From contig NZ_JACKUK010000036.1 of NCBI RefSeq assembly GCF_025822765.1, positions 108,312 to 172,311 on the forward strand: a stretch of DNA of 64,000 bases, given 5' to 3'. Each line of letters begins with the position of its first letter. Positions within the stretch are counted from its first letter, which is position 1. Source of the DNA: Mycobacterium barrassiae. Lineage in GTDB: Bacteria; Actinomycetota; Actinomycetes; Mycobacteriales; Mycobacteriaceae. The notes beneath the pieces were generated by a model. It had not been told where the DNA came from. It saw nothing but the letters and a program-made list of their open reading frames with translations, and ran no database searches. Shown here piece by piece: positions 30,328-53,397 of the stretch. Position numbers and translations under genes: made by a program.

Positions 30328-30331
30328 CACC

Positions 30332-31996
30332 ATGACGGCACCGGCACGGCGTTGGGGCATCGCACTTTTTGCGATCCTCACTGTGTTTTACTTCTCGGTC
30401 GGTGCCGTACTCATCCTGCGGTACAACATGTTCGACCCGGACGCGCCGAGCCGAGTGGCGAACGCCGGATACGTGGTGATGAGTCGCCATCCCCACCTCT
30501 CCGCGATCGGATTCGTCTGGAATCCGCTGCCCAGCCTTGTCGAAGTGCCCGTGCTGCAACTCAGTCGCTGGTGGCCGGAGGTGAAGACGCACGGGCTGGC
30601 CGGTGTGGCGCAGAGCGCGCTGTTCATGGCGGGCGCAGCGGTGATGGTCCGGCGCATCGCACTGGACCGCGGTGTCGGCGACGTGTGGCGCTGGCTCGCA
30701 GTCGCCTGCTTCGCACTGCAGCCCATGATCATCATCTACGGCGCTTCCGGGATGAGCGAAGCCGCGCAGGTGTTCTGTGTGCTGTGGTGCGCCCGCCACC
30801 TGATGCAGTGGGTGAGCAGGAGACGAGTCGGTGATCTCGGCTGGGCCGGAGTGGCTTTGGGCGTGGGCTACCTGGCCCGGTACGAGATCGTCGCCGCCGC
30901 GTGCGGTGCAGCCCTGTTGGTTGCTGTGATCGCATTCCGGCGTTCCGAACGTGAAAACCGGCTCAACTCCGCGGTTCTCAGCGTGATCATTGTGTTGTTC
31001 CCATTGGCGGCGGCATTATCGATATGGGCGTTCACCGGGTGGGTGGTCTCCGGTGAGGCGTTCGCAACCCTCACGTCGCAGTACGGCAACGGCAGCCAGG
31101 TGGCCGCAGCCGCGGAACGCGCAGGCCCGCATATGAAGGCCGCCTCCGACGACTGGGTGGTCATCTCCGCCCGGATACTGGGCATGCAGCCGTTCGTCGG
31201 GCTGGCGTCTGCGGGCGCGGTGGTGCTCGCCGCGCTGAGCAGGAAGGCCGACGCTCTGGTCCCGGTCTTCACGTTCGGTCCGATTCTGGCCTTCGCCGCG
31301 TGGAGTCAGTACTCGTCGACGACGTTCGGCTGGTTCCGGTTCTATCTGCTCGCGGTCCCGCTGGTGGTGTGCATAGCGTTGGCGTGCTGGGAGCCCGTTG
31401 CCTCGGCGGCACGGGCTGCGCGGGCGTGGTGGCGGGCGGACAACGTCCCGAGCCGGGTCGGTGCGGGACTGTTGTGCGCGTCGTTGGCCGTCGGGCTGCC
31501 CGTGACGGTGTTGGCGATGTCGAACGAGCGAATCGGCAACCAGCAGTTGCAGTATGGGTTGAAGTCGTTGATCTATCCCGAGGACTATCCGCCCACCGAG
31601 CAGTGGTACCGGCGGTTGATGGTCAACGATCGTTCGTTGGCCCAATACTTCGACCGCAAGCACCTACCGGAGGGCTCCGTCCTGATGGACACTTTCAACA
31701 CCTGGGGCGTCTGGCTCGCGTCGAAGAACCCGAAACAGTTCGTCATCACGAGCGACTACGACTTCACCGCAGTGCTGAACCGACCGTGGGATTTCGGCGT
31801 GCAGTACATCGTCGCGAGCAATCCGGCGATCTCCCAAGCGGACGCGTTGAACATCCGCTACCCGTCGCTGTGGGCCGACGGCGCGGGCCTCGGCACGCTT
31901 GTGCACTCGGTCTATGGAGCCACGGGCGACGAACGATTCCGTATTTACCGCACCACCGGAAGGCCGGCCCCGCCGAACGCTCAGACCACCGGATAA
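30332..31996 (+). CDS. GT-C-type polytopic glycosyltransferase
   Basis: A 554-residue membrane protein with about eleven helices and a C-terminal soluble domain (about 400-554). The first loop holds an acidic motif (MFDPDAPSR) and aromatic/proline-rich SRHPHLSAIGFVWNPLP, as in GT-C enzymes that use polyprenyl-phosphate sugars. It is the last gene of the synthase operon and probably decorates or initiates the glycan. The ATG at 30332 follows the BcsB-like stop by 4 bp. Its last five codons lie within copy A of the 27-bp repeat, so its 3' end overlaps a duplicate of the EEP gene end. Confidence 0.75.
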   Translation: MTAPARRWGIALFAILTVFYFSVGAVLILRYNMFDPDAPSRVANAGYVVMSRHPHLSAIGFVWNPLPSLVEVPVLQLSRWWPEVKTHGLAGVAQSALFMAGAAVMVRRIALDRGVGDVWRWLAVACFALQPMIIIYGASGMSEAAQVFCVLWCARHLMQWVSRRRVGDLGWAGVALGVGYLARYEIVAAACGAALLVAVIAFRRSERENRLNSAVLSVIIVLFPLAAALSIWAFTGWVVSGEAFATLTSQYGNGSQVAAAAERAGPHMKAASDDWVVISARILGMQPFVGLASAGAVVLAALSRKADALVPVFTFGPILAFAAWSQYSSTTFGWFRFYLLAVPLVVCIALACWEPVASAARAARAWWRADNVPSRVGAGLLCASLAVGLPVTVLAMSNERIGNQQLQYGLKSLIYPEDYPPTEQWYRRLMVNDRSLAQYFDRKHLPEGSVLMDTFNTWGVWLASKNPKQFVITSDYDFTAVLNRPWDFGVQYIVASNPAISQADALNIRYPSLWADGAGLGTLVHSVYGATGDERFRIYRTTGRPAPPNAQTTG

Positions 31997-32006
31997 CTCG
32001 CGGTCG
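31980..32006. repeat. 27-bp direct repeat, copy A (segment boundary, left)
   Basis: Perfect copy of 53371-53397, running from CTCAGACCACC to CTCGCGGTCG. It carries the last seven codons and stop of an EEP-like gene (on -) as a remnant, and the 3' end of the GT-C gene (on +). The two copies bound 21.4 kb. Flanking bases differ on both sides (G/A before, T/G after). Confidence 0.95.
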
Positions 32007-32015
32007 TCGGTTCAC

Positions 32016-32981
32016 TCATTGCGGTAACCCGCCTCCGCATTCCCGTCGCCAATCAGAAAATGCCTCTTGCAACGAATACTGTTGGACGAAGCCAATATCG
32101 GCGAGGCGGTCCGAGCTGATGTTGGTATCGAGATGCAACTTCTGGATGCGCCGCGGATGAACGCCGAAGCGTCCGCCCAGCGGGTCGATCAACCCGAAGG
32201 GCGTCGCCGCGGCCACGGCAAGACGATAAGGAACGGTCGGCGGTCGGCGGTGCCACCCCCACGCCCGGTTGATGGCATCGACGATGTCTCGGATCGTGGT
32301 CGGCTGCGGGTAGACGGCGTGGTAGGTGTCGTGTGGCCCGTCGTCGTCGATGAGGTGGACCAGCAGCCGCACCATGTCCTTGAGGTAGATGCAGCTCTTC
32401 ACCGTGTCCTGACGACCGATGTAAGCGAAGCGCCGTCGGCTCAGGCCGTGGATCAGGCGTCGCATGTTGCCTTGATCGCCGGGGCCGAAGACCACGCCGG
32501 GGCGAACGATACGCAGACGGCGCCCGGGTCCGCCGGCCTGCCACGTCCGGAGGATCTCCTCGGCCTGCAGCTTGCTGCAACCGTACGCGGTGTCGGCGTC
32601 GAGGAAGTCGTTCTCGGCTCGTCGCCAGGGGCCGGCGGCGAAGGCCATCATCGAACTGGTGAAGATGATGTTCTGCACACCCGCGCGTTCGGCCGCCCGA
32701 CACAGCCGACGGGTGGCCTCGGCATTGTTCGCGAAATAGTCCCGCCAGGGACTGCCGGGCTCTTTTGAGAGGGCGGCGAGGTGGATGATGGTCGACGGAC
32801 GTGGTGTGACATCGAATGCATCTTCGTCAAGTGTGGTCAAATCGCAGCGGAGTGAGTCAGTCGGCTCCGCGGTACGGTCGAGACCAACCACCGGACGGCC
32901 GATCTTGCGGAGATGCGCAACCAACGACCCACCGATGAACCCTGAACTGCCCGTAACGATGACCGAATCGTTGAAGGTCAT
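32016..32981 (-). CDS. NAD-dependent epimerase/dehydratase (extended SDR)
   Basis: A 321-residue extended SDR acting on nucleotide sugars or related substrates. It has the N-terminal TGSSGFIGG motif (residues 10-18) and the catalytic YGCSK (about 132-136), with conserved RPGVVFGPGDQGNM. The ATG at 32981 is preferred; the frame stays open upstream into the BcsB-like gene, but the Rossmann motif follows immediately after this ATG. ATGA overlap with the upstream BcsB-like gene. It is the first gene inside the 27-bp-repeat segment. Its product could be a 4-epimerised or reduced sugar, not determinable here. Confidence 0.87.
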   Translation of the reverse strand: MTFNDSVIVTGSSGFIGGSLVAHLRKIGRPVVGLDRTAEPTDSLRCDLTTLDEDAFDVTPRPSTIIHLAALSKEPGSPWRDYFANNAEATRRLCRAAERAGVQNIIFTSSMMAFAAGPWRRAENDFLDADTAYGCSKLQAEEILRTWQAGGPGRRLRIVRPGVVFGPGDQGNMRRLIHGLSRRRFAYIGRQDTVKSCIYLKDMVRLLVHLIDDDGPHDTYHAVYPQPTTIRDIVDAINRAWGWHRRPPTVPYRLAVAAATPFGLIDPLGGRFGVHPRRIQKLHLDTNISSDRLADIGFVQQYSLQEAFSDWRRECGGGLPQ

Positions 32982-34996
32982 CGTGCGCGTCGCCTGCGGG
33001 CGACGATCAGAGCGGCCGCTGCGATGACGAGGGCGGCGACCGATCCCGCGCCGAGCCACCATAGCCAGCCCGGCCGCGCATCACTGTCACTTTCAGATGC
33101 GGCGACCGAGGCAGAAGAATATGACGGGGGATTGATAGTCACCGGATCGTGCCCGGCCACCGACACCACAGCGATACCACGGAGATTCTGCCAGCGCTGC
33201 GGCTCGCCGTTGAGCCATCCGAAAAGCTCGTCTAGTTGAGCGGCAGGCCCATTGGACGTGGCGATCAACATAGTCCGACCGTTGTCGAAAACCGTTTGTA
33301 GAGAAGCGAACCGCAACGCCGGATCCAGGGTGACCACGGTGGGATCACCTCCAGATTCGTTGGCGTTGAAGGTGATCGGCCCAGTATCCGATGCGGCAAC
33401 GGGCAACACGATGTTGGAGTTGTTCCAGCCTTCAGCAGCGATCACCAAGGCAGGGTTTGATGAGTCGATCGCCTCCTGAACGCTCTTGACGACAACGTCG
33501 ATAGGCGTGTTCGAAGTCCGCTTCTGCAGACCCACGACAACGTTGACCGCTCGAATGGTGTCAGGCAGCGAGCGGGGTTTGATGCCCACCGTGAGTTGCG
33601 GCATCAGTGCCTGCGGCAGCGATTGGAATCCGGCAGGCACGGGCGGTTTCGCCGGACTGCTCTGCACTTGGCTGTCGCCGTCGATTGTCAACGTCGGTAC
33701 ACGGTCGCCGGGATCGAAGGTGTAGAAATCTCCGCATCGTCCGGCGTTACCTGCCTCGTTCAACGCCACACGAATCAGGGTGTATCGATCGAGGAGCCGA
33801 TCCGGAACTGTGACCGAGCGGTCGATGTTGCCCGTGTTGTCAGCGGGCCAGTGGTCGATGATTTCCTCGCCTATCGACACTGTGATCTGCCCGCCGATAT
33901 CGGGCGGCATCGGGGTGTAGGACCCCTCCAACTGCAAACGCACGTCATGGATTGATCTACCAAATCGCGTCTGGTCCAATCCGATCGACACCTGCGGCTC
34001 CAGGGCGGTGGCGCTGAGGGAGGGCTGACCGAGGTCACGCAGCGTTGTCGTGTCACTGGGGAACTGCTCGGTGGGATCCAGGGAGTCCACGACAGCTTTG
34101 GGGGATAGAGCGAGCGGGGACAGATCGTCGAACAACAAATCGATGTCAGGCTTGCTTGCCTGCCCCAAAGGCCCTGAGATCAGCAACCACGGCGCTTCGG
34201 GGGCACCCTGTACTGACAGTCCGTCGTTCGGCCCTTCTTTGATCACGACCTGGCGCTCCAGAGGTTGCGGAGGCCCCGGCGGTATCGCCTGGGCGTTCGG
34301 CAGCGGAACCACCACGATCTGGGGGGCGTGACCACCGTAATTCACGGTCGCTGAGCTGGCCAGTTGAATTGCCGCCTCAGACTCCGCGGGCGAAGGTGAC
34401 TGTGGCAGAAATATCGTCAGCTGGCGGAGCACCGGCGGCAGGAAGGCGGCGACTGTGGCGGGCGGCTGCTCGACACCGGCGAAGCTGACGGAGCCATCGA
34501 TCAGACGCAACGGGCTCTCGGCCCTGAAACACTGCCTGTCCAGCGGAAGTAGGTAGGTGTGCACGGACACCGTCACGGAGCCGTCGATCACCGCTGCGCC
34601 ACCGAGTGGGATCTCCACCGGCACCAGGTTGGCGGGAGGCAGGTCCACACGCCCGAGGATCCGGTCGCCCTGCATCACCGTCAGCAGTCCGGACTGAAAA
34701 TTGATCGGTAGCTCGACCGTCGTGTTCAGTGCAATGGGCGTGAGCCCGGGCGGAACCGGCAGAGTCAGACGCTGTGATGAGGTTTCGCCGTAGAACGCCA
34801 AGGGCGAAACGATCCCCAGTTCCCGAAGCGAAATACTTGATGTGCCCCCCGGTGGCGCCGTGTCCGTCGCCGCGATCTCGTCGCCGGGCTGACCATGGGA
34901 TGGCGGAGCCGTAATGGCAAAGACACCAACCGCGGCAATCGCGAGCGCAACGACCACGTCTACACACTTCCGGTACATCACGGCAACAGTATGCAT
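32978..34996 (-). CDS. BcsB-like extracytoplasmic protein (copy 2)
   Basis: A protein of about 672 residues with signal sequence (VVVALAIAAVGVFAIT), a large extracytoplasmic body and a C-terminal helix (WLWWLGAGSVAALVIAAAAL) ending in RRRRAR. It shares the layout of copy 1, for example SLRELGI / SWTQLGL after the signal peptide. There is no second BcsA-like synthase beside it; its neighbours are an epimerase and a Wzx flippase. The start is uncertain: ATG 34996 or ATG 34978, neither with a strong ribosome-binding site. It is divergent from wzx across 97 bp. Confidence 0.75.
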   Translation of the reverse strand: MHTVAVMYRKCVDVVVALAIAAVGVFAITAPPSHGQPGDEIAATDTAPPGGTSSISLRELGIVSPLAFYGETSSQRLTLPVPPGLTPIALNTTVELPINFQSGLLTVMQGDRILGRVDLPPANLVPVEIPLGGAAVIDGSVTVSVHTYLLPLDRQCFRAESPLRLIDGSVSFAGVEQPPATVAAFLPPVLRQLTIFLPQSPSPAESEAAIQLASSATVNYGGHAPQIVVVPLPNAQAIPPGPPQPLERQVVIKEGPNDGLSVQGAPEAPWLLISGPLGQASKPDIDLLFDDLSPLALSPKAVVDSLDPTEQFPSDTTTLRDLGQPSLSATALEPQVSIGLDQTRFGRSIHDVRLQLEGSYTPMPPDIGGQITVSIGEEIIDHWPADNTGNIDRSVTVPDRLLDRYTLIRVALNEAGNAGRCGDFYTFDPGDRVPTLTIDGDSQVQSSPAKPPVPAGFQSLPQALMPQLTVGIKPRSLPDTIRAVNVVVGLQKRTSNTPIDVVVKSVQEAIDSSNPALVIAAEGWNNSNIVLPVAASDTGPITFNANESGGDPTVVTLDPALRFASLQTVFDNGRTMLIATSNGPAAQLDELFGWLNGEPQRWQNLRGIAVVSVAGHDPVTINPPSYSSASVAASESDSDARPGWLWWLGAGSVAALVIAAAALIVARRRRAR

Positions 34997-35093
34997 TCTT
35001 TGCGCCTGTTCTTGAGGTAACGTTCCGGGACGATCTGTCAGATGTCGACTCCGGTGGAATGCGGGTGATCTCCCGATTTGGTGCCTGTAAGCC

Positions 35094-36557
35094 ATGACTG
35101 AGCCGCCGGCACCCGGTGCGGAAGTACCGTCTGTTCCCCTCACGCGAATCGCTCACGCGTTCTCGATCCAATTGATCTGCCGGGTGCTGGGCCTAATGGC
35201 GTCGGTGTTCTCGGTGGCGATGACCGCGCGCTACCTGGGTCCTGACAGTTACGGCCAGCTGGTCATCGCGGTGATGTTCATCGGAATGTGGACCAGCCTC
35301 GCCCATCTCGGGATCGCCACCGTGATCGTTCGTCGCGTGACATCCGGTCGCGGCGACCTCGAGAGACTGGTGCGGGTCAACAGCGGCCTGGCTTTGATCT
35401 ATTGCATTCCGCTCGCCGCTGCGGCCGCGCTGTCGGGCTTGCTCATATACGACGACTTCGACGTACGAGTCATGCTTGTCGTGTTGTCCGGGGGGCTGCT
35501 GCTGCAGACCATGGTGACGAGGTTCGAGCCAGTGTTCCTTGTCACCGTCCGCTTTTCCGCGGTCGCACTGTCGGACGTGGCAGGCCGGGTAGGCACGCTG
35601 ATCATGGTGGCCTGTCTGGTGTCCATTCAGGCTGACGTCATCTGGTTCGCTGTCGCGCAACTCATCCCTCCCGTCCTTCAGCTGTTGATCCAGGGCACCG
35701 CCGCGATGCGGCACGTCTCGGTACGTCCGATCTTCGCGCTTCGTGAGGCCGCCGATCTGTTGCGAGAAAGCCTGCCGCTCACTGCCTTCCTGGTGGCCGG
35801 GCTCCTGTATTCCAATGCAGACGGCGTGGTCCTTTCGCTCCTCTCCACCGATTTCGAGGTGGGGGTGTACGGGTTGGCGTTCACGATCGCGTGGAGCACT
35901 ATCGCGGTCTCCCTTGTGTTCCACAGTTCAACCCTGTCGACGCTCACGGGCTCGTTCGCACGTGACGTCGGCGACTTCGCCAGCTTTCTGCGCCGCAGCG
36001 TCGAAGTGATGGCCTTTGTGGCAGTCCCGATCTGTGTCGTCGGCGCACTTCTCTCCGGCCCGTTGATCGCGCTGTTCGGCGACGATGCCTTCGTCGAGCG
36101 CGGGACCCCGACGCTGGCGCTGCTGTTCATCGCCGCGGGGCTGCGCTTCATCAGCAGCACCCTTGGTCAGGGGTTGATCGCCTCTCATCAACAACGAGTC
36201 CTGTTGTGGTTGACCCTCGTCACCCTCGTGCTCAACCTCGCATTGAATGTCGCTCTCGCGGAGCGATTCGGCGCCGTCGGGGCCGGCGTGGCATTGGTAT
36301 GCACCGAGTTGTTCCACATGACCGTCTCGACCTGGCGGCTGCGTACTCGATGCGGATACCGCACACCGGTGGTGTTCCTGCTGCGACTTCTGGTGCCAAC
36401 AGCAGCCAGCGTTGTGGTGACACTGTGGCTCTCCGACCACCACGTCGTGCTGACACTGGGTGCTGCCGCAGTTGCCTATGTGGCCACCAGCGCGCTCGTC
36501 GGCCCGATCAGATGGTCCGACCTGAAGTCGTTCCGGCAGAAGCAGTCTGCATCGTGA
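35094..36557 (+). CDS. Wzx-type polysaccharide flippase (MOP superfamily)
   Basis: A 487-residue polytopic protein with about twelve to fourteen helices. The N-terminal block (ARYLGPDSYGQL) is characteristic of polysaccharide transport proteins that flip lipid-linked repeat units across the membrane. It opens an operon with the GT2-GT4 fusion (GTGA overlap) and a GT4. Together with the Wzy-like and Wzz-like proteins encoded about 8 kb away it makes a Wzx/Wzy assembly set. Confidence 0.85.
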   Translation: MTEPPAPGAEVPSVPLTRIAHAFSIQLICRVLGLMASVFSVAMTARYLGPDSYGQLVIAVMFIGMWTSLAHLGIATVIVRRVTSGRGDLERLVRVNSGLALIYCIPLAAAAALSGLLIYDDFDVRVMLVVLSGGLLLQTMVTRFEPVFLVTVRFSAVALSDVAGRVGTLIMVACLVSIQADVIWFAVAQLIPPVLQLLIQGTAAMRHVSVRPIFALREAADLLRESLPLTAFLVAGLLYSNADGVVLSLLSTDFEVGVYGLAFTIAWSTIAVSLVFHSSTLSTLTGSFARDVGDFASFLRRSVEVMAFVAVPICVVGALLSGPLIALFGDDAFVERGTPTLALLFIAAGLRFISSTLGQGLIASHQQRVLLWLTLVTLVLNLALNVALAERFGAVGAGVALVCTELFHMTVSTWRLRTRCGYRTPVVFLLRLLVPTAASVVVTLWLSDHHVVLTLGAAAVAYVATSALVGPIRWSDLKSFRQKQSAS

Positions 36558-38521
36558 AAGGCAAACCCGACCGCGCCTATCTGAAACCCGCCGTCGGCGG
36601 CACCGAATCCATGCCGCCGATCCGCACGATGGCGGTGTTGATCGTGAACGACCAGGCCCACTCCGCGCTGGGAATGTGTTTGGCAAGTGTCGCCGAACAC
36701 CTGCCTGAGCTACAGGTCTATGTGTACGACGACAGCGCCGGTCACCTCGCCCGGGATGAGCTCGGCGCCCGCTACCCCGCGGTGCACTGGATATGCGGTC
36801 CGTCGCGTCCGCGCTTCGCCGCGGCCTTCAACGCACTGGCCGAGAACGTGCCGAGCGACGCCGACCTGCTGTTCCTGCGTGCCAATGCCCGTGTGCTCGG
36901 GCCGTTGACCCGCACCAAGGAGTTGCTCGGCGAGCCATCGGTAGCGGCGGTTTCGCCGCTGATGCGCGACAACACTGCACCCGGACGGGCCCGCTGGGAC
37001 AGCGCCATCCGGCGTCAAACGCTTCTTCGGTCGCTCGTCTCGACGGCGGGGTTATCTGATTCGCTTCGCCGAACCCCTGTCTCGCTGTTGTACCCGCGCC
37101 AACCTTCCGAAGCGGAGAACATCGGCGGCTATTTGGACAGCCCGTGCCTGGCGATCAGCCGAACGGCATGGAACTCTGTCGGCGGCTTTGACGAAGAGTT
37201 CTTTCTGTACGGCGAGTCCGCCGATTGGCAGGCTCGCGCCCGCGCTGCCGGATGGCGAATACTGCTGGCCGATGAACTGGGCGTCGAGCGGGTGACTCCC
37301 GACCCCGGTCAGGCTGGTAGTCGACGTGACCGCGACGTGACACGCACCAATACCGCGCTGCTGCTCGAGCATCACGAAGGTGTCCGTAAAGCAGATGTGT
37401 ATCTGGCCGGCGCCACGCTCCTGGATCGGCTACGGCGGCCGAAGCGGAGTGTCCCGACACCTGGAGCCGGGCGCAGCCGCACGGACTTGCCGGAGGTGGT
37501 GATCGTCACCAACCGTCTCGTATACGGCGGGGCCGAACGGCAAAAGGGCCTGCTGGCAACGGAGTTGGATCGCCGCGGATATCCGGTCACGATTGTCTGT
37601 GTTCAGCGATACGGTCCGGTCATCGCTGAAATCCCGGAAACCGTACGTGTCGTGCGCCGCCCATGGTGGGCTCCGATACGTGAGAGATCCACCCGCCCAG
37701 CCGTCCTCGTCACCGGCGACACCAACACCGAGACGGGGTTCGGCACGTTGTGGCGCGCGGGCGCCGCGAACCGGCGATGGCTCGTCGCGGCCCATGTTCC
37801 GCCAGCGGACGACGAGCCGATCTACTCCCACCCACTGACCGCGGCAATGAACCGCGCGGACGGCTTCATTGTTCTGGCACAACGGCATTGGGACATGCTG
37901 GTCTCGACACATCGGCTCCGCGGCCCGTACTTCATCGCGCCGAACGGAGTGAGCTTGACCGGGAATCCGACCCCACGGATACGTCCCGACGACTCGCTCC
38001 CACACCTCGTGATGCTCTCGCGAATCGTCGAACACAAGAATCCACATGTGCTGATTGAGGCGCTCAGCCAACTCGCCGATATGCCCTGGCAACTATCAAT
38101 TTTCGGCGATGGTCCTGATCGTGCGATGTTGGAGGCCAAGACCCCTGACCACCTGCGTGATCGGGTGCAATGGCGCGGGTGGTCAGCGGGTCCGGAGCCG
38201 GCACTCGCTGACGCCGACCTGCTGTGTGTCCCGAGCCGCTCCGAGGCTTTCCCGCTAGTGATCCTCGAGGCGATGGCCCGCGCGGTCCCGGTCGCCGCCT
38301 CGGCGGTATGCGCCGTCCCTGAGATGCTGGACTTCGGAAGAGCCGGGTACCTCGTCGAGCCGATCTCGGTGGCAGGATGGCGAGATCAGCTCGCCCAGAT
38401 CCTGGCAGACCCCGGGGCATTACCTTCGGTCGGGCAACGTGGCTACGAGCGCATGCGCCAGCACTACACGGTGGAGGCGATGACCGACGCCTACATCGAA
38501 GCAATCGAGGCCGTTCTATGA
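36554..38521 (+). CDS. Bifunctional GT2-GT4 glycosyltransferase fusion
   Basis: A 655-residue cytoplasmic protein with two transferase domains. Residues about 25-290 form a GT2 domain (AVLIVNDQAHSALGMCLAS, DDSAG, LDSPCLAISRTAWNSVGGFDEEFFLYGES). Residues about 300-655 form a GT4/GT-B domain (VIVTNRLVYGGAERQKGLLATEL, RIVEHKNPHVLIEAL, and EAFPLVILE at about 564-572, the Ex7E motif). It could add two successive sugars. The GTG at 36554 overlaps the wzx stop; the upstream open frame lies in wzx. The next transferase starts in its stop codon. Confidence 0.87.
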   Translation: MKGKPDRAYLKPAVGGTESMPPIRTMAVLIVNDQAHSALGMCLASVAEHLPELQVYVYDDSAGHLARDELGARYPAVHWICGPSRPRFAAAFNALAENVPSDADLLFLRANARVLGPLTRTKELLGEPSVAAVSPLMRDNTAPGRARWDSAIRRQTLLRSLVSTAGLSDSLRRTPVSLLYPRQPSEAENIGGYLDSPCLAISRTAWNSVGGFDEEFFLYGESADWQARARAAGWRILLADELGVERVTPDPGQAGSRRDRDVTRTNTALLLEHHEGVRKADVYLAGATLLDRLRRPKRSVPTPGAGRSRTDLPEVVIVTNRLVYGGAERQKGLLATELDRRGYPVTIVCVQRYGPVIAEIPETVRVVRRPWWAPIRERSTRPAVLVTGDTNTETGFGTLWRAGAANRRWLVAAHVPPADDEPIYSHPLTAAMNRADGFIVLAQRHWDMLVSTHRLRGPYFIAPNGVSLTGNPTPRIRPDDSLPHLVMLSRIVEHKNPHVLIEALSQLADMPWQLSIFGDGPDRAMLEAKTPDHLRDRVQWRGWSAGPEPALADADLLCVPSRSEAFPLVILEAMARAVPVAASAVCAVPEMLDFGRAGYLVEPISVAGWRDQLAQILADPGALPSVGQRGYERMRQHYTVEAMTDAYIEAIEAVL

Positions 38522-39576: not shown

Positions 39577-40099
39577 CCCGCCGGCCACCCCATCGCCGGC
39601 GGCGCCTTCCGCTCTCGGCAAGACCGGTCCAGTATGTCTGGAGCCAGCCGGTCAGCTCGCTTGCTCGGCCCAACGAACCAGAGGGGGCCGGCATCGATCG
39701 CGCCGCCTCGATGGCTGCGGCGAGGTCGTCCATTTCGTGGACCACTGTCGCCAACCCCGCAGTTTCCAGCTTTTCGGCGAACGGCAGCTGGTGCTCGTCG
39801 ACCTGTTCCCCGTACACGGGGCGTCGGGGCACCACCACCGGGCGCTTGCCCTGCTCGACGCACAGCAGCGCCGACCCGGCACCAGCGTGGGTGACGACCA
39901 CGGAAGCGCGGCCGATCTGGTCACGAACATCTCCGAAGGACAGGAAGCGCTCATACCGGACGTGACGCGGCTCGTAATTGCACGTGCCGAGCTGCATAAA
40001 GAAGTCCTCCCCCACCGCACCTGTGCGACCCAGTTCGTCGACAGCACGAGCGAGCCGGTCGAACGGATGCACCTCCATTCCCGTGATCACGAAAATCAC
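39545..40099 (-). CDS. Alg13-like catalytic subunit of a split glycosyltransferase
   Basis: A 184-residue GT28 C-terminal-type domain with VVVTHAGAGSALLCVEQGKRPVVVPRR, the UDP-sugar-binding region of Alg13/PssE/EpsE-like proteins. Such proteins need a membrane partner of the Alg14 type, and that partner is encoded directly upstream with an ATGA overlap. By analogy the pair adds the second sugar of a lipid-linked repeat unit. The C-terminal tail is Arg-rich. Confidence 0.85.
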   Translation of the reverse strand: MIFVITGMEVHPFDRLARAVDELGRTGAVGEDFFMQLGTCNYEPRHVRYERFLSFGDVRDQIGRASVVVTHAGAGSALLCVEQGKRPVVVPRRPVYGEQVDEHQLPFAEKLETAGLATVVHEMDDLAAAIEAARSMPAPSGSLGRASELTGWLQTYWTGLAESGRRRRRWGGRRVNADGPPPAQ

Positions 40100-45370: not shown

Positions 45371-45371
45371 A

Positions 45372-46430
45372 ATGCCTTCTCCAGCCGAGGTGCTGCCCTA
45401 TTTTGGCGGTGTGGCCAAGATTGCCGTCACGCACGTAGGACCCGACATCCATAGCTTCGGCGGGACGCAGTCGGTGATTCGCGTGATACGCGACAACAAG
45501 ATCGGCGCGGACGACATCCAAGTGCTATCGACATGGAATGGATACCGCCACTTACACAATCTGCTCCTTACCGTCCGCGCGGGCTGGGCGCTGGCTCGCA
45601 CCCCTCGCAGCACCATCGTGCATTTCCATATCTCCAGTGGAGGCGCGTGGCTTCGGGAAGGACCGTTGATCCACCTCGCGAGGGCGCGCCGATTACGAGT
45701 GGTGATCACCATTCATGGCTTCGACATCGCTGAGTTCGCACGGAGGCACGCTCGTCTCGTGGGACCTACGCTGAGTCGCGCGGACCATGTGATCCTGTTA
45801 TCGGAGGACGCGCGTCTCACGGTTCGCGAGGTAGCTCCGTCGGTGCCCACCTCCATCGTGCCCAACCCGATCGTGATCGATCGATCTGCGCCCGGTGCCG
45901 CTACGACCTCACCGGTGGTTCTCTTCGCCGGGACGATTGGAATGCGCAAGGGCGTGGACGTCCTGGTCTCGGCCTGGCGGCTCCTCTTGGCTGAAGGCAT
46001 CGACGGGCAGTGTCGAATCGTCGGCCCCATAGATGACTACATCCCGCCGCCGATGGAACACCTGTCGGTGGAGGGCCCGGTTCCCCCCGCCCAAGTCCCC
46101 GAATTGATCCGCTCGGCTCGCGTAGTTGTGCTCCCGTCTCGTGCTGAGGCAATGCCGCTGATCGTGGCCGAGGCTCTCGCCGGCGCGAGACCAGTCGTCG
46201 CAACCCCGGTTTCGGGCACGCCGGCAATTGTGTCGGATCCGAAGATGCTGGTGCCGGTCGGTGACGCACGAGCGTTGGCGGATGCGATAGGTCGTTACCT
46301 GCGTGACCCCGATCTGGCCGAGCACGATGGCACAAAAGGCCAGGCGCACATAGCGGCCACCCGGAGTCCCGAGATCATCGATGTGAAACTTCGGCGAATC
46401 TATGAGGACTGCGGTGCCAGAACAGGTTGA
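45372..46430 (+). CDS. Family 4 glycosyltransferase
   Basis: A 352-residue GT-B enzyme. It has VTHVGPDIHSFGGTQSVIRVI at the N-terminus, VLFAGTIGMRKGVDVLVSAW at the domain junction, and EAMPLIVAE (Ex7E nucleotide-sugar motif) with the GxP acceptor region following. The ATG at 45372 comes 1 nt after the wzy stop; a GTG at 45411 (MAKIAVTHVG) is an alternative. It overlaps the aldo/keto reductase gene by 29 bp. Confidence 0.88.
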   Translation: MPSPAEVLPYFGGVAKIAVTHVGPDIHSFGGTQSVIRVIRDNKIGADDIQVLSTWNGYRHLHNLLLTVRAGWALARTPRSTIVHFHISSGGAWLREGPLIHLARARRLRVVITIHGFDIAEFARRHARLVGPTLSRADHVILLSEDARLTVREVAPSVPTSIVPNPIVIDRSAPGAATTSPVVLFAGTIGMRKGVDVLVSAWRLLLAEGIDGQCRIVGPIDDYIPPPMEHLSVEGPVPPAQVPELIRSARVVVLPSRAEAMPLIVAEALAGARPVVATPVSGTPAIVSDPKMLVPVGDARALADAIGRYLRDPDLAEHDGTKGQAHIAATRSPEIIDVKLRRIYEDCGARTG

Positions 46431-47373
46431 GCTAACCGGACCCAAGCTGACCTTGAGCGCAGTGGGTTTCGGCTGCGGCAGTTTGATGCAGTCACCCTCC
46501 CGCCGCGAGCGGATGGCCGTACTCGGTGCCGCACTTGATGGTGGCATAACGCATTTCGATATCGCACGGATGTACGGGTTGGGTATGGCCGAGGCCGAAT
46601 TAGGCCGGTTTCTGCGTACCGTAGAACGCGACACCGTGACCGTAGCAACAAAGTTCGGTATCGGCGTCGGCCGGTTGACTGAGCACCTGGCCCGGTTTCA
46701 ATCCCCGGTGCGGGCACTGCTTCGCAAAGCGCCGGCGTTTCGACGCACCGTGAAGCAACAGTACGACGCCGACAGGACTTCCCGCAGGTACGACGCCACG
46801 GTCGCCGCGGAGAGCCTCGACAAGAGCCTGACGATGCTCGGGCTCGACTATGTCGACATCCTGTTGGTACACGATCCAGGTCCCGGTGACACGGTTGTGA
46901 CCGATGAGCTCCGCGAATTCTTCGAGCGTGCACGACGTGAGGGCAAGATACGCGCGTGGGGTGTCGCACAAGACCGGAAGAACGACGCCGATATCGCCGC
47001 GGCATTCGAACCAGAAGGAGTCAGGCAACTCCGCGCCGATCTGTTTACGCCCCCGCTTAGGCCGGCAGATATCTCGTTCGGTGTGCTGAACCGGTCGCTT
47101 GCGCGGTTGTCGCAGACGTTACGGGCGGATTCATCGCTGGCGAACCGCTGGCGCGACATCCTGGACATCGATCCGCTCGATCCCAGCACTCTGGTCCGGC
47201 TGATCTTGGGGTCTTCCGCAACGGCAACGAATTGCCGCGCGGTCCTTTACAGCAGCACAAATCCCCGTCGAGTCGCCGCAGCTGCGAGGGCGGTCTCGGT
47301 ACCACTCGACCACGACGTCATGGTCAAATTCCTCGCTCTGGTCCAGGAACTGCGCTCGGACGGTGCTGAATGA
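46402..47373 (+). CDS. Aldo/keto reductase
   Basis: A 323-residue (beta/alpha)8 oxidoreductase using NADPH. The catalytic tetrad is visible: Asp and Tyr in HFDIARMYG, Lys in VATKFG, His in LLVHDPG. The ATG at 46402 is given, but GTG 46414 has a better ribosome-binding site (GAGGA) and may be the true start. ATGA overlap with the next gene. In this operon it probably reduces a keto sugar or keto-lipid intermediate, possibly one made by the GMC-type enzyme. That pairing is inference. Confidence 0.85.
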   Translation: MRTAVPEQVELTGPKLTLSAVGFGCGSLMQSPSRRERMAVLGAALDGGITHFDIARMYGLGMAEAELGRFLRTVERDTVTVATKFGIGVGRLTEHLARFQSPVRALLRKAPAFRRTVKQQYDADRTSRRYDATVAAESLDKSLTMLGLDYVDILLVHDPGPGDTVVTDELREFFERARREGKIRAWGVAQDRKNDADIAAAFEPEGVRQLRADLFTPPLRPADISFGVLNRSLARLSQTLRADSSLANRWRDILDIDPLDPSTLVRLILGSSATATNCRAVLYSSTNPRRVAAAARAVSVPLDHDVMVKFLALVQELRSDGAE

Positions 47374-49064
47374 TCCGCAGCCCAGGGGATTTCACGGCCG
47401 GCATGACGATCGAGACGGATGTAGTGGTCGTCGGCGCGGGTGCGATCGGCATCGCAGTGGCGTTGGAACTCGCTGGTGCAGGTGTCAGAGTGGACCTGAT
47501 CGAGAGCGGGCTCTCCGATCACGTCAGTCGCGAGGCGCAGGATCTCGCCAAATTCGATGCACGGCAGGATGATTACTTCCATGCCGACAGCATCGAGACC
47601 GTGCGTCGGGGAATCGGCGGCACCACCGCACTATGGGGCGGGCGCTGCGTCAAGTTCGACCCCATCGATTTCGAGAAGCGCCCGATCACTGCCCATGCAC
47701 CCTGGCCGATCAGGTACGAAGATGTCGAGCCGTACCTGCAGAAAGCGTGTGACTGGGCGGGCTGCGGTCAGGCGGTGTTCAATGCGCGCGACATACCGGA
47801 ACTCGCGGACCGGGATCTGATCGCCGGGCTTCTCGACGGGGAAATTCGCACAACTGATCTCGAGCGCTGGGCTGTCACGCGCTTCGGCAGTCAATACCGG
47901 AAAGACCTGAAAGCCACCCCCGGTCTCACCGTATGGACGGGCCTTACGTGCACAGAGGTCGTGACGACGGAGGCCGGCGACTGCGTCGCCCATCTCGTTG
48001 TCAAGACACTCGACGGCCGCGAGGGCCATGTGGTCGCCGCAGATTACGTAATCGCGACCGGCGGACTGGAGGCGACCCGCTTGCTGATGGCGTCAGACCG
48101 CCAACACCCCACTGGGTTGGGAAATTCAGGTGGCCACCTAGGCCGCTGGTACATGGCACACGTGGACGCCCGGGTGGCCCGCGCGCACTTCACCGCCGAA
48201 TACATCACCCACGGATACGAGCGTGACCGCGACGGCGTGTACCTGCGGCGCCGATTCACCTTCGACCCGAAGTTCCTTCTTGAAGCCGAAATGCCCAATG
48301 CGGCTATCTGGTTGGTGAACCCCCCGATCAGCGATCCCGGTCACAAGAGCGGGATTCTGTCGGGCGTCTATCTCACGTTGATCTCGCCGGTCGGACATCT
48401 GCTGCTCGCGGACGCGATCCGCCGGATACACACCAAGACAGAGGGCCCCCCTCAGATCGCTGCGCACTTGCGCAATGTCCTCCGTGATGCGGTTCCGTCG
48501 CTGCGCTTCGCGATCGGCTTCATCTACGCCCGATTCCTGCGCCGCGGTCGTAAAGCACCGGGCTTCTTCGTGAAGAGTCCGGGCAACCAGTACCTCCTCG
48601 AATACCACGGGGAGCATCTCCCTCACTGGGAAAGCCGCGTCGAGCTGACCGACGAGCGCGACAACCTTGGAATGCGGCGAATTCGGACCCACCTGTACTT
48701 CTCCGACGATGATTTCCGAAGTGTTCGCAAGGCAATTGCCGCCATCGACGACCATCTTCGTTGCCATGGTGTCGGATATGTCGATTGGCTGACCGACGAC
48801 GTCGAGGGCTCAGTACGTGCTCACATGGAGAAGTACGCCGGTTTCCACCAGGCCGGAACCACGCGGATGTCGGAATCGCCAGAAGACGGCGTCGTTGACC
48901 CGAACCTTCAGGTCCACGGTGTACGTGGACTGTACGTAGCAAGCACATCGGTACTACCCACGTCCAGCCAAGCCAACCCCACGCTCGTCGGGATCGCGCT
49001 GGGAGTCCGGCTCGCCGAGCGGCTCAAGGAGTTACGCCGCCGGAGGCCAGAACTCGTCGATTAG
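47370..49064 (+). CDS. GMC-type FAD-dependent oxidoreductase
   Basis: A 564-residue flavoprotein with FAD motif VGAGAIG (residues 21-27), substrate-domain IGGTTALWGGRC (about 80-91), and the C-terminal GMC block with catalytic His in GFHQAGTTRM followed by GLYVASTSVLPTSSQANPTL. It would oxidise a sugar or alcohol hydroxyl to a ketone. It is the last gene of the plus-strand operon starting at 40742. Its final 33 bp overlap a convergent gene. No signal peptide is seen, so it acts inside the cell. Confidence 0.87.
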   Translation: MIRSPGDFTAGMTIETDVVVVGAGAIGIAVALELAGAGVRVDLIESGLSDHVSREAQDLAKFDARQDDYFHADSIETVRRGIGGTTALWGGRCVKFDPIDFEKRPITAHAPWPIRYEDVEPYLQKACDWAGCGQAVFNARDIPELADRDLIAGLLDGEIRTTDLERWAVTRFGSQYRKDLKATPGLTVWTGLTCTEVVTTEAGDCVAHLVVKTLDGREGHVVAADYVIATGGLEATRLLMASDRQHPTGLGNSGGHLGRWYMAHVDARVARAHFTAEYITHGYERDRDGVYLRRRFTFDPKFLLEAEMPNAAIWLVNPPISDPGHKSGILSGVYLTLISPVGHLLLADAIRRIHTKTEGPPQIAAHLRNVLRDAVPSLRFAIGFIYARFLRRGRKAPGFFVKSPGNQYLLEYHGEHLPHWESRVELTDERDNLGMRRIRTHLYFSDDDFRSVRKAIAAIDDHLRCHGVGYVDWLTDDVEGSVRAHMEKYAGFHQAGTTRMSESPEDGVVDPNLQVHGVRGLYVASTSVLPTSSQANPTLVGIALGVRLAERLKELRRRRPELVD

Positions 49065-49901
49065 CGACTTCGTCTGGTGGATGTTCGCTTTGCTCGAGGC
49101 ACCAAAAACAATCGAGTCGATCTGCGGTTGACTGCAAACGTATTCGATCGCCTCGCGCGGCGGAATGGCGCCGGAGGCGAGCACCGACATAGCAATCACC
49201 CGGCATTGGCGTTCGCGAATCGTCCGCTCGTAGAGCGCCACCCCTCCGCACATCCGGAAGCCGATCTTGTTGAAATTCACACACACGATCGGGTTTTCGA
49301 TCCCCTGGCCGTGGAGGGCATCCAGCAGTGCAGGCAGATTCATCGAAATGAACCCGGGCTCAGCTCCGTATCTGTCCTTCACGTGGTCTGCGAAAACTCG
49401 GAATGCCTCATGCATTCCGAGTCCGAGCAGCAGGTCAGTGACGATGTTCTGAATGAAGATCACCGGCGTAGACAGTCCGGCGAACATCTTCATCTCGGCA
49501 TCGATCAGCAGCTGCATGATGGGTTCGATGTCCTTACTGGCTACCGCAACGCCGCCCTTGAACATCGACTTGATCGCGCCGTCGTCGGGAAGGAACCTGC
49601 GCAGCGCATCCACCATCCCGAACTCTGTCACCGCGTTTGCGTACTTGTGCGCGTAGGGCATACCGGGATAGAAGACGTAATCGGGATACCGGGATTGGTT
49701 GGCACGAAAATGATCACAGATTTCGGCGACACGATCGTGGGTCGTGCATACGAACGTCCGGATGCCCTCGCTGTATGCCGCATCGAGAGTAGCGAGCACT
49801 GGCTCCAGATTCTGGAACCTCATGGCCTGTGCGCGCGCTTTTTCCTCGGACATGTGATTGACGCCGAAAAACTGGTTGTCCCCAAATAGCACTCTGTCCA
49901 T
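49032..49901 (-). CDS. TIM-barrel protein, distantly aldo/keto-reductase-like
   Basis: A 289-residue protein without a confident family. The beginning (VLFGDNQFFGVNHMSEEKA) and the end (IDSIVFGASSKANIHQTKSLIDEF) resemble the first strand and last helix of aldo/keto reductases, but the Asp-Tyr-Lys-His tetrad is not recognisable. It is the last gene of the minus-strand operon Gfo/Idh - epimerase - Gfo/Idh - this gene, 2 bp after the preceding one. Start supported by GAGGAAC upstream of ATG 49901. Confidence 0.7.
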   Translation of the reverse strand: MDRVLFGDNQFFGVNHMSEEKARAQAMRFQNLEPVLATLDAAYSEGIRTFVCTTHDRVAEICDHFRANQSRYPDYVFYPGMPYAHKYANAVTEFGMVDALRRFLPDDGAIKSMFKGGVAVASKDIEPIMQLLIDAEMKMFAGLSTPVIFIQNIVTDLLLGLGMHEAFRVFADHVKDRYGAEPGFISMNLPALLDALHGQGIENPIVCVNFNKIGFRMCGGVALYERTIRERQCRVIAMSVLASGAIPPREAIEYVCSQPQIDSIVFGASSKANIHQTKSLIDEFWPPAA

Positions 49902-49903
49902 GG

Positions 49904-51031
49904 TTACGAGTTCCTCGATGCTGCAAGGCTTTTGACACGCGCACCGATCCAGCTACGGAAGGATCGGCGCTGAGACCCGTTAACCGATGGTTGCGCCACC
50001 TGCTCAGGGCGCGAAGTCAGGCCCACGCCGGTAATCATCTCGACCACGCGATCGCAGTCGAGCGCGGACCGAAAGGAGTTCTCGCCGTCTAATCGGCCCA
50101 TCTTGATGCTGTTGGCGAAGTAGTCGATCTGTGCCGAGTATTCCTCTCCGCGAAGGTAATACCAGACCTCTTCGGTGAGGTCCGTGGTGTAACGGATCGT
50201 CCACCCCTTCGTAATGTCGGGTAGCGAGGGGTGGACGTCACGAAGATAGATCTGGCATTCCTGTCGGTCGGCCACGACACGGCCGTTCGTCCCCCACACG
50301 GAGATCTTCGTCGACATTTTTCGAAAGCTCTCGTCGCTCCAATTGACGCACAACTGGCCGCTCGCGCCGCCAGCATAACGCAGTGTGCAATACACCTCGT
50401 CGTCGACGTCGCGCGAGAAGATGCTATGGCGGACAACGCCGTCGACCGATCTCGGAACTTCGCCGACGACGAAGTTGGTCAGGTCGATCGCATGGCACGC
50501 GTAGTCGTACAGCGCTCCGCCACCTTCGGCCTTCACCCCGCGCCACGTACTTCCCTTTGCGCGGAGAACCACTGGACCGTATGCCTCCACGCGCACGTGG
50601 TGCACACGTCCGAGCCCACCCGACGCGACAATCCGTGCCGCCTCCTGGAACGCACCAATGAAACGATTGTGGTATCCGACCTGCGTGACAACCCGCTCGC
50701 GTTCGGCTAGCGCCACCAACCGCTCGCCGTCCTTGACGTCGAGGACGAACGGCTTCTCGCAGAAGACGTGCATTCCGCGCGTAAGAGCCTTTTCGACCAT
50801 CGGTGCATGCAGCTTGGATGGGACAGCGACGACGACTGCCTCGGCGTTCGTCTGGGTAAGCATCCGGTCGAAGTCGTCGTAGCAGTCCACGCCGGTGTAC
50901 TTGGCGAGGACATCGCGCACATAACCTGTGGAATCACAGACACCAACCACGTTCAGGTCCGGGTGCATACGGAGGATGGCCAGGTGGGACAGACCCATCT
51001 TGCCGAGGCCGACGATCGTTGTCCGAATCAT
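49904..51031 (-). CDS. Gfo/Idh/MocA-family dehydrogenase (copy 1)
   Basis: A 375-residue NAD(P)-dependent sugar dehydrogenase. It has the N-terminal IVGLGKMG Rossmann motif, CEKPF (the family EKP catalytic-Lys motif) and GGALYDYACHAID for the substrate side. The ATG at 51031 is chosen because GAGAGG lies 8 nt upstream; the GTG at 51040 falls in that ribosome-binding site. It is in an operon with an epimerase and a second Gfo/Idh gene, suggesting oxidation/epimerisation of a nucleotide sugar. Confidence 0.88.
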   Translation of the reverse strand: MIRTTIVGLGKMGLSHLAILRMHPDLNVVGVCDSTGYVRDVLAKYTGVDCYDDFDRMLTQTNAEAVVVAVPSKLHAPMVEKALTRGMHVFCEKPFVLDVKDGERLVALAERERVVTQVGYHNRFIGAFQEAARIVASGGLGRVHHVRVEAYGPVVLRAKGSTWRGVKAEGGGALYDYACHAIDLTNFVVGEVPRSVDGVVRHSIFSRDVDDEVYCTLRYAGGASGQLCVNWSDESFRKMSTKISVWGTNGRVVADRQECQIYLRDVHPSLPDITKGWTIRYTTDLTEEVWYYLRGEEYSAQIDYFANSIKMGRLDGENSFRSALDCDRVVEMITGVGLTSRPEQVAQPSVNGSQRRSFRSWIGARVKSLAASRNS

Positions 51032-51047
51032 CGCTTGCACCTCTCAC

Positions 51048-52142
51048 TCACGCCGGACCTCCATTCACAGGCGCGTCGAAACCGGCAAAGCGCAGCCATC
51101 GTCCCGCAGCGGCCATCAACTCGTGAAACGGTTCAAGCTGCATCTCGGGATAACGGCGCCCGAACGCATTCGCCGGCAACTTGTGCTTTGTCCCCTGAAC
51201 CCACCACAGGTTCTTCTCGACGGTTGGCGATGGCTCGATTCGCTGCGGCTCGCTGATCGGCGGCACGAGCCGCTCTTTCAGCTGCTGTTTGAGCCGCGAT
51301 CTGGTCTCAGCCGGAATGCGGCGCTTGATCGCCATGGCAGGCGCGGTTTCGCGAAGGTCGAGCACCCGCCGCATCAAGCTTTTCCGGATCGCGGAATCGG
51401 GTAGCCGGTGTATTGTCCGCTCGTCGACACCGACTTCATGCGCAATTGCTCGGTAATAGTCGGCCCAACAGTGTGTTTCGATGTCCGAGACGTTGAAGAC
51501 TCCCGACTCGATCTTGTCAGTGCGCGCGAGTTGAACCAGGTGCCGGATCAAGTTGTCCACATGGATCAGATTGCAGATTCCGTTGCCGTCGTTGAACAGG
51601 TAGGCGGTGCCGTCGACCAAGGCGCGCGCAGGACCTACCAGCCATCCCGACCCCGGTCCCCAGATCAGTCCGGGGCGCAGGATAACCGCTTTCACCGGCC
51701 CGTCCGACTGCAGGCGTAACCACGCTTCTGCAGCCGCTTTCTCCCTTCCGTACTGCATCCAATGCTGGCCATCCGGAACGGAATCCTCCTCGAGGTCAGG
51801 CGCTTCCGCTCTGCCGAATACCTCTGCCGAACTCATGTGAACCAGTATGGGAACCTCTGCTTCACGGCAGGCGTGGTGAATGGTTTGCACATCCCCGACG
51901 ATGCGTTCGTCGTCGCCCATCGTCAGGTTCACGGCCATACCGCATCCCTTCAGCAAGGGCACCAGCGATGTCGTGTCGCTCGCGGACCCGCGCACCGTTC
52001 GAACGCCATACCGCGCTAAGCGTCCCTGGCTGCGCCACGATCTCACGATCGGTACCAGCTGCAATTCGCCTAGAAGCTCGGCCTGTTCGATGAGGCGTGA
52101 TCCGACATATCCCCCGGCTCCGATGACCGCGATGGGCTTCAT
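51048..52142 (-). CDS. NAD-dependent epimerase/dehydratase-like protein
   Basis: A 364-residue extended-SDR protein. It has VIGAGGYVGSRLIE at the N-terminus, YGREK as the catalytic Yx3K motif (preceded by VHMSSAEVFG) and LRPGLIWGPGSGW. A C-terminal extension of about 90 residues is basic and unlike typical epimerases. Coupled by ATGA to the upstream Gfo/Idh gene and 16 bp from the downstream one. The GGYVG motif replaces the usual GGxGF(I/L)G with little change. Confidence 0.85.
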   Translation of the reverse strand: MKPIAVIGAGGYVGSRLIEQAELLGELQLVPIVRSWRSQGRLARYGVRTVRGSASDTTSLVPLLKGCGMAVNLTMGDDERIVGDVQTIHHACREAEVPILVHMSSAEVFGRAEAPDLEEDSVPDGQHWMQYGREKAAAEAWLRLQSDGPVKAVILRPGLIWGPGSGWLVGPARALVDGTAYLFNDGNGICNLIHVDNLIRHLVQLARTDKIESGVFNVSDIETHCWADYYRAIAHEVGVDERTIHRLPDSAIRKSLMRRVLDLRETAPAMAIKRRIPAETRSRLKQQLKERLVPPISEPQRIEPSPTVEKNLWWVQGTKHKLPANAFGRRYPEMQLEPFHELMAAAGRWLRFAGFDAPVNGGPA

Positions 52143-53227
52143 ACCGCTCGCGATCCTTTCCAGTGCTTCGTACGCGCCGCGACCTGTTCAGCTTCCGGCA
52201 ACCAGGAACATTCGATGGGTTCAGCGATCTCATAGGCTCTCGCCATCGCCGCTTGCACGTTAGCCGCCTGGGCCCCGGTTACCGGGAAAGGCTCGCCATA
52301 CGCAATGCAGCGAAGCATCGCGGTCAATTGCACTTCGAAGCAGACGTTGTAGTTGACGGGCCGCACGCGTTTTCCTCCGCTACGCACCATGTCCGCCGGC
52401 CAGTCCGTTTTGGCGGGCATCAGCATCCAACCCTCGCGTGTCCTACGCCGATAGGTTCGGATCTCGTCCAGATCGATCAGGACCTCCCCGGCACTCCCCC
52501 AGATCCGCAATCCGTTGTTCAGCGGATACTCCCAACTGACGTGCATGGTCCCGCGTGCGCGTGGAAATGCCAACTCCAGAATCGAATTCGTCTCGACCCC
52601 TCCGACCAGACTGTCATCGAACGCGCGCTCCACCACGGGATCACCGAAGATCCAACTCAACTGATCGAGAACGTGCACACCTTTGTCGAGAAGCGCACCA
52701 CCGCCCGACTTTTCACGCCTGAAGGCCGCGTCGGTCGTGACCGGCCAACCGTAAGTGCCACCCTCGCGATAGGTGAACTGCAGCTGATCGCCGAGTTCCC
52801 CGCTAGCCACCAACTTCGCGACATCGGCAAAACTCGCGTAAAACCGCCTGGTGTAAGCCACACCGAGAACTCGACCCGCCCGGTCCGCAGCTGCATTCAT
52901 CCTGTCGGCATCAACCATCGTTGTGGTCATTGGCTTTTCGCACAACACGTGGCAACCATGATCGAATGCAGCGACCGCATGGTCGGCGTGCAAGCCAGCG
53001 GGCGAAGTGATCATCGCCAGGTCATACGAACCGGCCGCAAAGGCGGTACCGCACTCGGGGTAGTACGTCGCTTGTTTGAATTCGGCAGCTATTCGTTTTC
53101 CCCGCGACTCGTCTGGGTCCACTACGCCGGTGACTCGTACTGCGCCGAGTTTCTCGAGACGACGCAGCGCTGGACGGTAGTGCTCATCGACGACTGCCCC
53201 GGCGCCAACCAATAGCCCCTCGATCAT
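52139..53227 (-). CDS. Gfo/Idh/MocA-family dehydrogenase (copy 2)
   Basis: A 362-residue dehydrogenase with LLVGAGAVVDEHYRPAL as the Rossmann start, CEKPM, and GGALLDKGVHVLDQLSWIFGDP. ATG 53227 is preferred (AAAGG 8 nt upstream) over the longer frame. It leads the minus operon 53227-49032 and has low similarity to copy 1 beyond family motifs, so the two likely act on different intermediates. Its upstream region (53228-53370, 143 bp) runs up to copy B of the 27-bp repeat and must hold the operon promoter; no clear -35/-10 is seen. Confidence 0.87.
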   Translation of the reverse strand: MIEGLLVGAGAVVDEHYRPALRRLEKLGAVRVTGVVDPDESRGKRIAAEFKQATYYPECGTAFAAGSYDLAMITSPAGLHADHAVAAFDHGCHVLCEKPMTTTMVDADRMNAAADRAGRVLGVAYTRRFYASFADVAKLVASGELGDQLQFTYREGGTYGWPVTTDAAFRREKSGGGALLDKGVHVLDQLSWIFGDPVVERAFDDSLVGGVETNSILELAFPRARGTMHVSWEYPLNNGLRIWGSAGEVLIDLDEIRTYRRRTREGWMLMPAKTDWPADMVRSGGKRVRPVNYNVCFEVQLTAMLRCIAYGEPFPVTGAQAANVQAAMARAYEIAEPIECSWLPEAEQVAARTKHWKGSRAV

Positions 53228-53370
53228 CGACTGCCTTTCAATCCAGATTGGAGTGCCCCGCCCAAGCCGGCCCGCCTGCAAGGTTAGTGAGGACTTGCAA
53301 TTGTCTCGTGTAGTTGATGAATTGTGACGAATTTGCGGAGGCGGTCCGGACTCGGGGCGGCCCCCGGCTA

Positions 53371-53397
53371 CTCAGACCACCGGATAACTCGCGGTCG
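53371..53397. repeat. 27-bp direct repeat, copy B (segment boundary, right)
   Basis: Identical to 31980-32006. Here it is the natural 3' end of the EEP gene: one base past its stop, the stop, and its last seven codons (T-A-S-Y-P-V-V). This marks copy B as the ancestral site and copy A as the duplicate. Confidence 0.95.

Follow-up and report, generated by a model that had tools for sequence, protein, structure and literature searches.

A 27-bp direct repeat around a polysaccharide cassette of Mycobacterium barrassiae as the probable relic of a duplicated flank gene

The window examined here, 64,000 nucleotides of Mycobacterium barrassiae contig NZ_JACKUK010000036.1, carries a predicted Wzx/Wzy-type polysaccharide segment enclosed by a perfect 27-bp direct repeat. 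One copy of the repeat is the 3′ end of a gene of the endonuclease/exonuclease/phosphatase family (EEP). The earlier note on this DNA had read the segment as a unit inserted at, or able to excise from, a site at the end of a gene that resembles a phage attachment (att) site. Comparison with other mycobacteria suggests a different origin. With a probability of roughly 0.7, the repeat is a gene relic beside a surviving sister EEP, and neither an att site nor a target-site duplication. The features on which the argument depends are as follows (LUX, EEP, epi1 and similar gene names are working labels).

30302..31996, + strand: GT-C, membrane glycosyltransferase-like, with its end and stop codon in copy A (its PMT_2 match is weak and under the curated threshold)
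31980..32006: repeat copy A, interpreted as the remaining stub of a left EEP since deleted; positions 31980-31996 code for the GT-C terminus
32007..32015: 9-bp spacer from the stub to the epi1 stop codon, the presumed deletion junction
32016..33062, − strand: epi1, sugar epimerase/SDR, which adjoins the left EEP in genomes G039 and G341
53371..53397: repeat copy B, the authentic EEP 3′ end
53372..54355, − strand: EEP, endonuclease/exonuclease/phosphatase-family, the kept right copy
54384..56204, − strand: LUX, luciferase-like monooxygenase, the conserved right flank

Both copies read CTCAGACCACCGGATAACTCGCGGTCG and are identical over exactly 27 bp, with identity beyond both edges at background level. 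Within the window the 27-mer occurs only at 31980 and 53371, and just one other exact direct repeat of at least 20 bp is present, a local tandem at 28440/28467. A simple base-composition model predicts about 1.2e-6 exact 27-mer pairs by chance, so a chance repeat was rejected, in agreement with the earlier note. The source assembly is a 49-contig draft. Searched with window positions 31900-32100 (E 0.001), it returned these two places and no third copy, and a dispersed repetitive element was rejected on this ground. Exact 27-mer scans of genome_contigs and viral_contigs, sets from which the source genome or very near genomes may be missing, gave 0 matches each. Inverted repeats at the two junctions (ten and seven pairs) were mostly imperfect or short.

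The GT-C stop codon (31994-31996) lies inside copy A and the EEP stop codon (53372-53374) inside copy B. The EEP of G113 and of G011 likewise encodes a protein ending in PTASYP, with no GT-C seen in the fetched 1.5 kb, while the C-terminal endings of GT-C vary from species to species. In this comparison G341 was represented by the right, broken copy of its EEP, and the GT-C rows of G068 and G083 overrun the likely end. Because the ending is common to EEP genes with no GT-C in the fetched flank, the 27 bp belong to EEP, and copy A is EEP-type sequence, read as an EEP stub. The note's description of copy B as the EEP 3′ end, and of copy A as a duplicate of it lying over the end of GT-C, is thus borne out.

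Genome G039, which has a single copy of the repeat, turned up among 148 genomes drawn from the genus; it came from this genome search only and not from the exact 27-mer scans. Its GT-C (90% nucleotide identity to the window) and EEP (88%) are convergent and share one perfect 27-mer. GT-C ends at 6077194 and EEP at 6077179, giving the 16-bp tail-to-tail overlap that had been predicted for a chromosome with one copy. The left flank of the G039 27-mer matches that of copy A and the right flank that of copy B, in register. The earlier note had also proposed looking for relatives with a single copy and no cassette. The single copy was found, but the cassette is not missing: epi1 (window 32015-32982) lies directly behind EEP in G039 at 84% nucleotide identity in the alignment of the regions, and it is followed by about 14 kb sharing little with the window segment and then by LUX. 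When the G039 cassette proteins were compared with those of the window, u721 matched at 29% and epi2 matched epi1 weakly. In the window, homology of epi1 to G039 restarts at 32015, and 8 bp separate it from the stub. The order in G039 is GT-C, EEP, epi1, cassette, LUX; in the window it is GT-C, 27 bp, epi1, cassette, 27 bp with EEP, LUX. The G039 junction resembles an empty insertion site but is probably none, because epi1 and another cassette lie beyond its EEP. Its use as a clean empty site proving insertion was dropped.

Two relatives carry a second EEP across the cassette. In G341 an intact EEP lies between GT-C and epi1, the order being that of G039, and the cassette matches that of G039 in five colinear blocks (75-81% nucleotide identity) with gaps between them. 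In the translation of this left EEP that served as an alignment row, the end before the stop codon is cut off. The second EEP of G341 is a broken remnant with internal stops, located between the cassette and LUX; G039 has just 39 bp at that place. In M. neglectum CECT 8778 (records L174 and L184, both on contig NZ_NVQE01000014.1; genome G423), two EEP copies in direct orientation surround a cassette. The order there is GT-C, frameshifted EEP, scraps of LUX, epi1 and lB (a left-flank gene), cassette, intact EEP, LUX. The broken copy is on the left in M. neglectum and on the right in G341. In M. neglectum the three scraps form a row behind the left copy and look like the remains of former flanks.

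In a tree of 20 EEP sequences, the left copy of M. neglectum clusters with those of the window, of G039 and of the M. tusciae group (100/99). Its right copy, which groups with both G341 copies (100/99), is chimeric. Sites that distinguish the left EEP of M. neglectum from that of G341 were counted: in positions 1-300 of the right copy (n = 61), 45 agree with its own left copy, 11 with G341 and 5 with neither. Across positions 301-1000 (n = 191) the balance is reversed, with 125 agreeing with G341, 38 with the own left copy and 28 with neither. Homologous recombination inside EEP would be the plain explanation of this pattern; crossover during import and later gene conversion are indistinguishable here. 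No recombination break was found in the EEP of the window, which follows G039 over its whole length.

The wider locus was mapped in 24 genome regions, 12 sequences from 13 EEP loci and 3 further genomes. The genomes searched are a sample of the genus with one per species, some of which may be conspecific with the named records. Wherever the flanks were in reach, the gene sets enclosed by them differ; the left-hand border is lB or GT-C and the right-hand one LUX. The interval therefore appears, from gene content, to be a hypervariable polysaccharide-synthesis locus. GT-C, EEP and LUX follow one another with no cassette in ten records (G124, G145, G132, G139, G098, G027, G081, G019, and M. tusciae L173 and L175), and nine have GT-C beside LUX and lack EEP (G094, G068, G083, G014, G056, G043, G040, G110 and G018). 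Cassettes also occur without EEP, as in G053, G024, G150, G321 and G292, where GT-C is followed by epi1 with no EEP between. In seven genomes the side of EEP relative to the cassette could be counted: left in two (G039 and G420), right in three (the window, G421 and G422) and both in two (G341 and M. neglectum). This count leaves out L176, with its ambiguous left content, and also G285, G231 and L185, where the EEP-like genes are distant (39-49%). The left neighbour in G420, G421 and G422 is lB instead of GT-C. A search for EEP traces at the far side of these three cassettes gave self matches only (blastn word size 11, E 1e-3), with settings that should reveal a 27-bp exact repeat and not a much shorter one.

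These arrangements suggest the following history. Contents of the locus would be swapped by recombination in conserved neighbours, EEP included, and such swaps could leave EEP at both sides of a new cassette, after which the extra copy decays. An ancestor of the window lineage may have had the order GT-C, EEP, epi1, with EEP flanking its cassette on both sides. The left EEP, between GT-C and epi1, would then have been deleted down to its last 27 bp while the right EEP beside LUX stayed intact. The stub may have been retained because its first 17 bp, of which 16 are the GT-C/EEP overlap, encode the last codons and the stop of GT-C. Since a second EEP lies across the cassette in two relatives, the 27 bp can be explained as what is left of a longer repeat in an ancestor. 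The GT-C–EEP–epi1 ancestor, and loss of the EEP body from that place in the window, are likely because in an epi1 tree of 18 rows, made without the short G169 match, the genes of the window, G039 and G341 fall into a single group (98/93), and exactly these three adjoin EEP or the stub. What was observed is the repeat, the gene orders of the relatives, the paired EEPs of G341 and M. neglectum, the chimeric EEP of the latter and the mosaic content; that the window's ancestor once had two EEPs, that one of them was deleted, and in which order this happened, is inferred.

Several observations weigh against this history. No direct intermediate of the window lineage was present among the genomes seen. 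The EEP of the window is 88% identical to the left copy of G039 and groups with it (100/100), so it is not an old copy of the right-hand type. To account for the right-hand EEP, the history therefore needs a further recent event: a duplication, a conversion, or recombination with a chromosome of the GT-C–EEP–LUX type. Any EEP trace in the 39-bp gap beside LUX in G039 was not significant, 93 of 500 shuffles scoring as high. Fourfold-site divergence between the window and G039 is 34% for epi1 (51/149), exceeding the 22-30% of its neighbours: LUX 37/171 (22%), lB 96/411 (23%), EEP 48/192 (25%), lA 55/219 (25%), E1 109/424 (26%), lE 73/265 (28%) and GT-C 85/284 (30%). The value is near but above those of the neighbours and thus leaves some room for a separate acquisition or transfer of epi1, which is possible. 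Moreover, epi1...gfo2-epi2 cassettes also exist outside the interval that runs from GT-C or lB to LUX. Those of G081 and G228 have no GT-C, lB, EEP or LUX within the fetched stretch. The G081 cassette (G081:C1:5265100-5304990; L156, L116) lies apart from the GT-C–EEP–LUX locus of the same genome, which is free of a cassette.

Finally, a single insertion would explain the repeat in one step, and this is the main rival. On this view a chromosome with the GT-C–EEP–LUX order, known without a cassette from the ten records above, would have received a preassembled cassette in its GT-C/EEP overlap, and 27 bp would have been duplicated, for instance when a staggered break was filled in and end-joined to the cassette. 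The repeat spans the entire 16-bp overlap, and the boundaries would be explained because only duplications spanning that overlap keep both genes intact. The off-address cassettes of G081 and G228 and the absence of a recognised recombinase from the segment also fit. Nevertheless, a single insertion is considered unlikely. In both G039 and G341 the edge gene epi1 already adjoins EEP, and the window's epi1 clusters with these two, which would need a coincidence; the segment is also a mosaic not found elsewhere as a unit. In addition, no repeat accompanies the cassettes left of EEP in G421 and G422, a weak point given that lB takes the place of GT-C on their left.

A more doubtful reading makes EEP a portable homology arm. 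Cassettes bounded by EEP copies in direct orientation, as in M. neglectum, would loop out as EEP-bearing circles and re-enter EEP-bearing mycobacteria by RecA. If this were true, the locus would hold a recombinase-free mobile polysaccharide island, and the 27-bp stub of the window would be its terminal fossil.

Site-specific recombination that integrates or excises the segment at an att core in the 3′ end of EEP, with the integrase acting in trans, is very improbable. Direct repeats at gene 3′ ends do resemble att cores, and G039 was looked at as an empty attB, where its one copy stands alongside epi1 and another cassette beyond EEP. As the earlier note had observed for integrases and transposases, no such gene was recognised inside: Pfam gave no recombinase, phage or plasmid gene among the 16 predicted segment genes (4 of the 16 match no family; small open reading frames were not part of the scan), and a PHROGs scan of seven segment proteins recognised none either. 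There are no tRNA genes in the window, the exact 27-mer is absent from viral_contigs, and a plasmid search made with Wzy only had as its sole match a 37% identical protein in a Tsukamurella record. No second site was found, and comparable junctions in G421 and G422 lack the repeat. An att site with an integrase was rejected because a recombinase was not recognised and the exact 27-mer had no other matches. The earlier proposal of att-like movement as a unit is also not supported in view of epi1 behind EEP in G039 and G341, the mosaic content and the second EEPs of relatives, together with the weaker point of G421 and G422.

An assembly artefact at a short repeat is the least probable explanation. 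The genome is a draft, but for modern assemblers a 27-bp repeat is short, the coding sequence of GT-C anchors copy A and that of EEP anchors copy B, and the outer flanks match G039 in register.

The remaining genes of the segment, and the gene E1 of the left flank, are listed below.

28174..30327, + strand: E1, large protein of the left flank, distant relative of u721; no Pfam match
32978..35143, − strand: u721, large protein, 54% amino acid identity to homologues in Wzy-type clusters (G046/G031/G363); no Pfam match
35094..36557, + strand: Wzx-like flippase
36206..38521, + strand: glycosyltransferase family 4, long open reading frame with the domain in its C-terminal half
38377..39576, + strand: glycosyltransferase family 4
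39362..40510, + strand: u382, accompanies the Wzy block in relatives; no Pfam/NCBIfam match
40742..42388, + strand: u548, accompanies the Wzy block in relatives; no Pfam/NCBIfam match
42486..43895, + strand: Wzz-like chain-length/tyrosine autokinase protein
43892..45370, + strand: Wzy-like polymerase (O-antigen ligase family)
45267..46430, + strand: glycosyltransferase family 4
46402..47373, + strand: aldo/keto reductase (akr)
47370..49064, + strand: GMC oxidoreductase (gmc)
49032..49901, − strand: u289, 81-88% amino acid identity to Wzy-type clusters; no Pfam match
49904..51040, − strand: gfo1, GFO/IDH/MocA oxidoreductase of the Wzy-type block
51048..52142, − strand: epi2, epimerase, in several other species within the locus between GT-C or lB and LUX, in opposite orientation
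52139..53281, − strand: gfo2, GFO/IDH/MocA oxidoreductase, found elsewhere as epi2 is

Flippase, polymerase, chain-length regulator and glycosyltransferases are all present by family match. The segment is accordingly a predicted Wzx/Wzy-dependent polysaccharide region, as the earlier note had proposed. Its wzx, glycosyltransferases, u382, u548, wzz, wzy, reductases, u289, gfo1 and u721 match clusters in G046, G031, G363 and G364, although the region fetched from G364 stops before wzx and u721. None of the flank genes GT-C, EEP and LUX, used as queries, was found in these cluster regions (L166-L172), and the wzx-side block there has the orientation opposite to that of the window. The genes epi1 and epi2-gfo2 are unmatched in these clusters. 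Their matches are in the GT-C/lB-to-LUX locus of other species, in which gfo2-epi2 adjoins LUX in the opposite orientation. Relatives of akr and gmc are present in both kinds of cluster. On these matches the segment is a mosaic of at least two sources, not one unit. Its G+C content is slightly lower than that of bins outside it (0.60-0.65 against 0.64-0.71). Of 396 genomes sampled from the genus, 132 have relatives of wzz/wzy (E ≤0.001, weak matches included).

That polysaccharide loci are exchanged through conserved flanks, with homology needed only there, is established (PMC6249986). The pneumococcal cps locus between dexB and aliA and the Klebsiella locus between galF and gnd hold, like the one here, variable Wzx/Wzy-type content between conserved genes. 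The mycobacterial relatives likewise have different gene content between the same conserved flanks. Unlike the cps and Klebsiella loci, the mycobacterial locus is bounded by GT-C or lB and LUX, and its flank gene EEP is duplicated, chimeric or side-switched; exchange itself is presumed here. For effector-immunity loci of the Vibrio cholerae type VI secretion system, homology-facilitated illegitimate recombination leaving displaced relics has been proposed (PMC5361080). Incoming modules anchored by one-sided homology leave old genes beside the new module, as here. The Vibrio leftovers are immunity genes, whereas the extra copy here is EEP, which decays. In Streptococcus pneumoniae, transformation with DNA partly repeated in the chromosome makes merodiploid duplications (PMC3784515). 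These are tandem, about 100 to 900 kb long and formed in a naturally transformable species, unlike the case here. By analogy, the window would work like flank exchange combined with relics of one-sided import.

No description of the locus was seen in titles or abstract openings of the open-licence literature among the matches listed, which is no proof of its being unpublished. The comparison marks a hypervariable Wzx/Wzy-type locus at a recurrent mycobacterial address, with stages of flank-gene decay in different species, so that plain genome comparison can be used to test for switching of surface polysaccharides at this place. It also illustrates that what looks convincingly like an att site can be a gene relic, and one junction that looks free of a cassette would have passed as proof of insertion.

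Within the Wzy-type clusters of G046, G031, G363 and G364, u548 (40742-42388 in the window) occurs in two copies within about 6.5 kb. The large proteins u721 (32978-35143) and E1 (28174-30327), which have no Pfam match, are apparent distant relatives and recur at the locus in many species. The local tandem repeat at 28440-28491, with its 27-bp offset, is short and lies inside E1.

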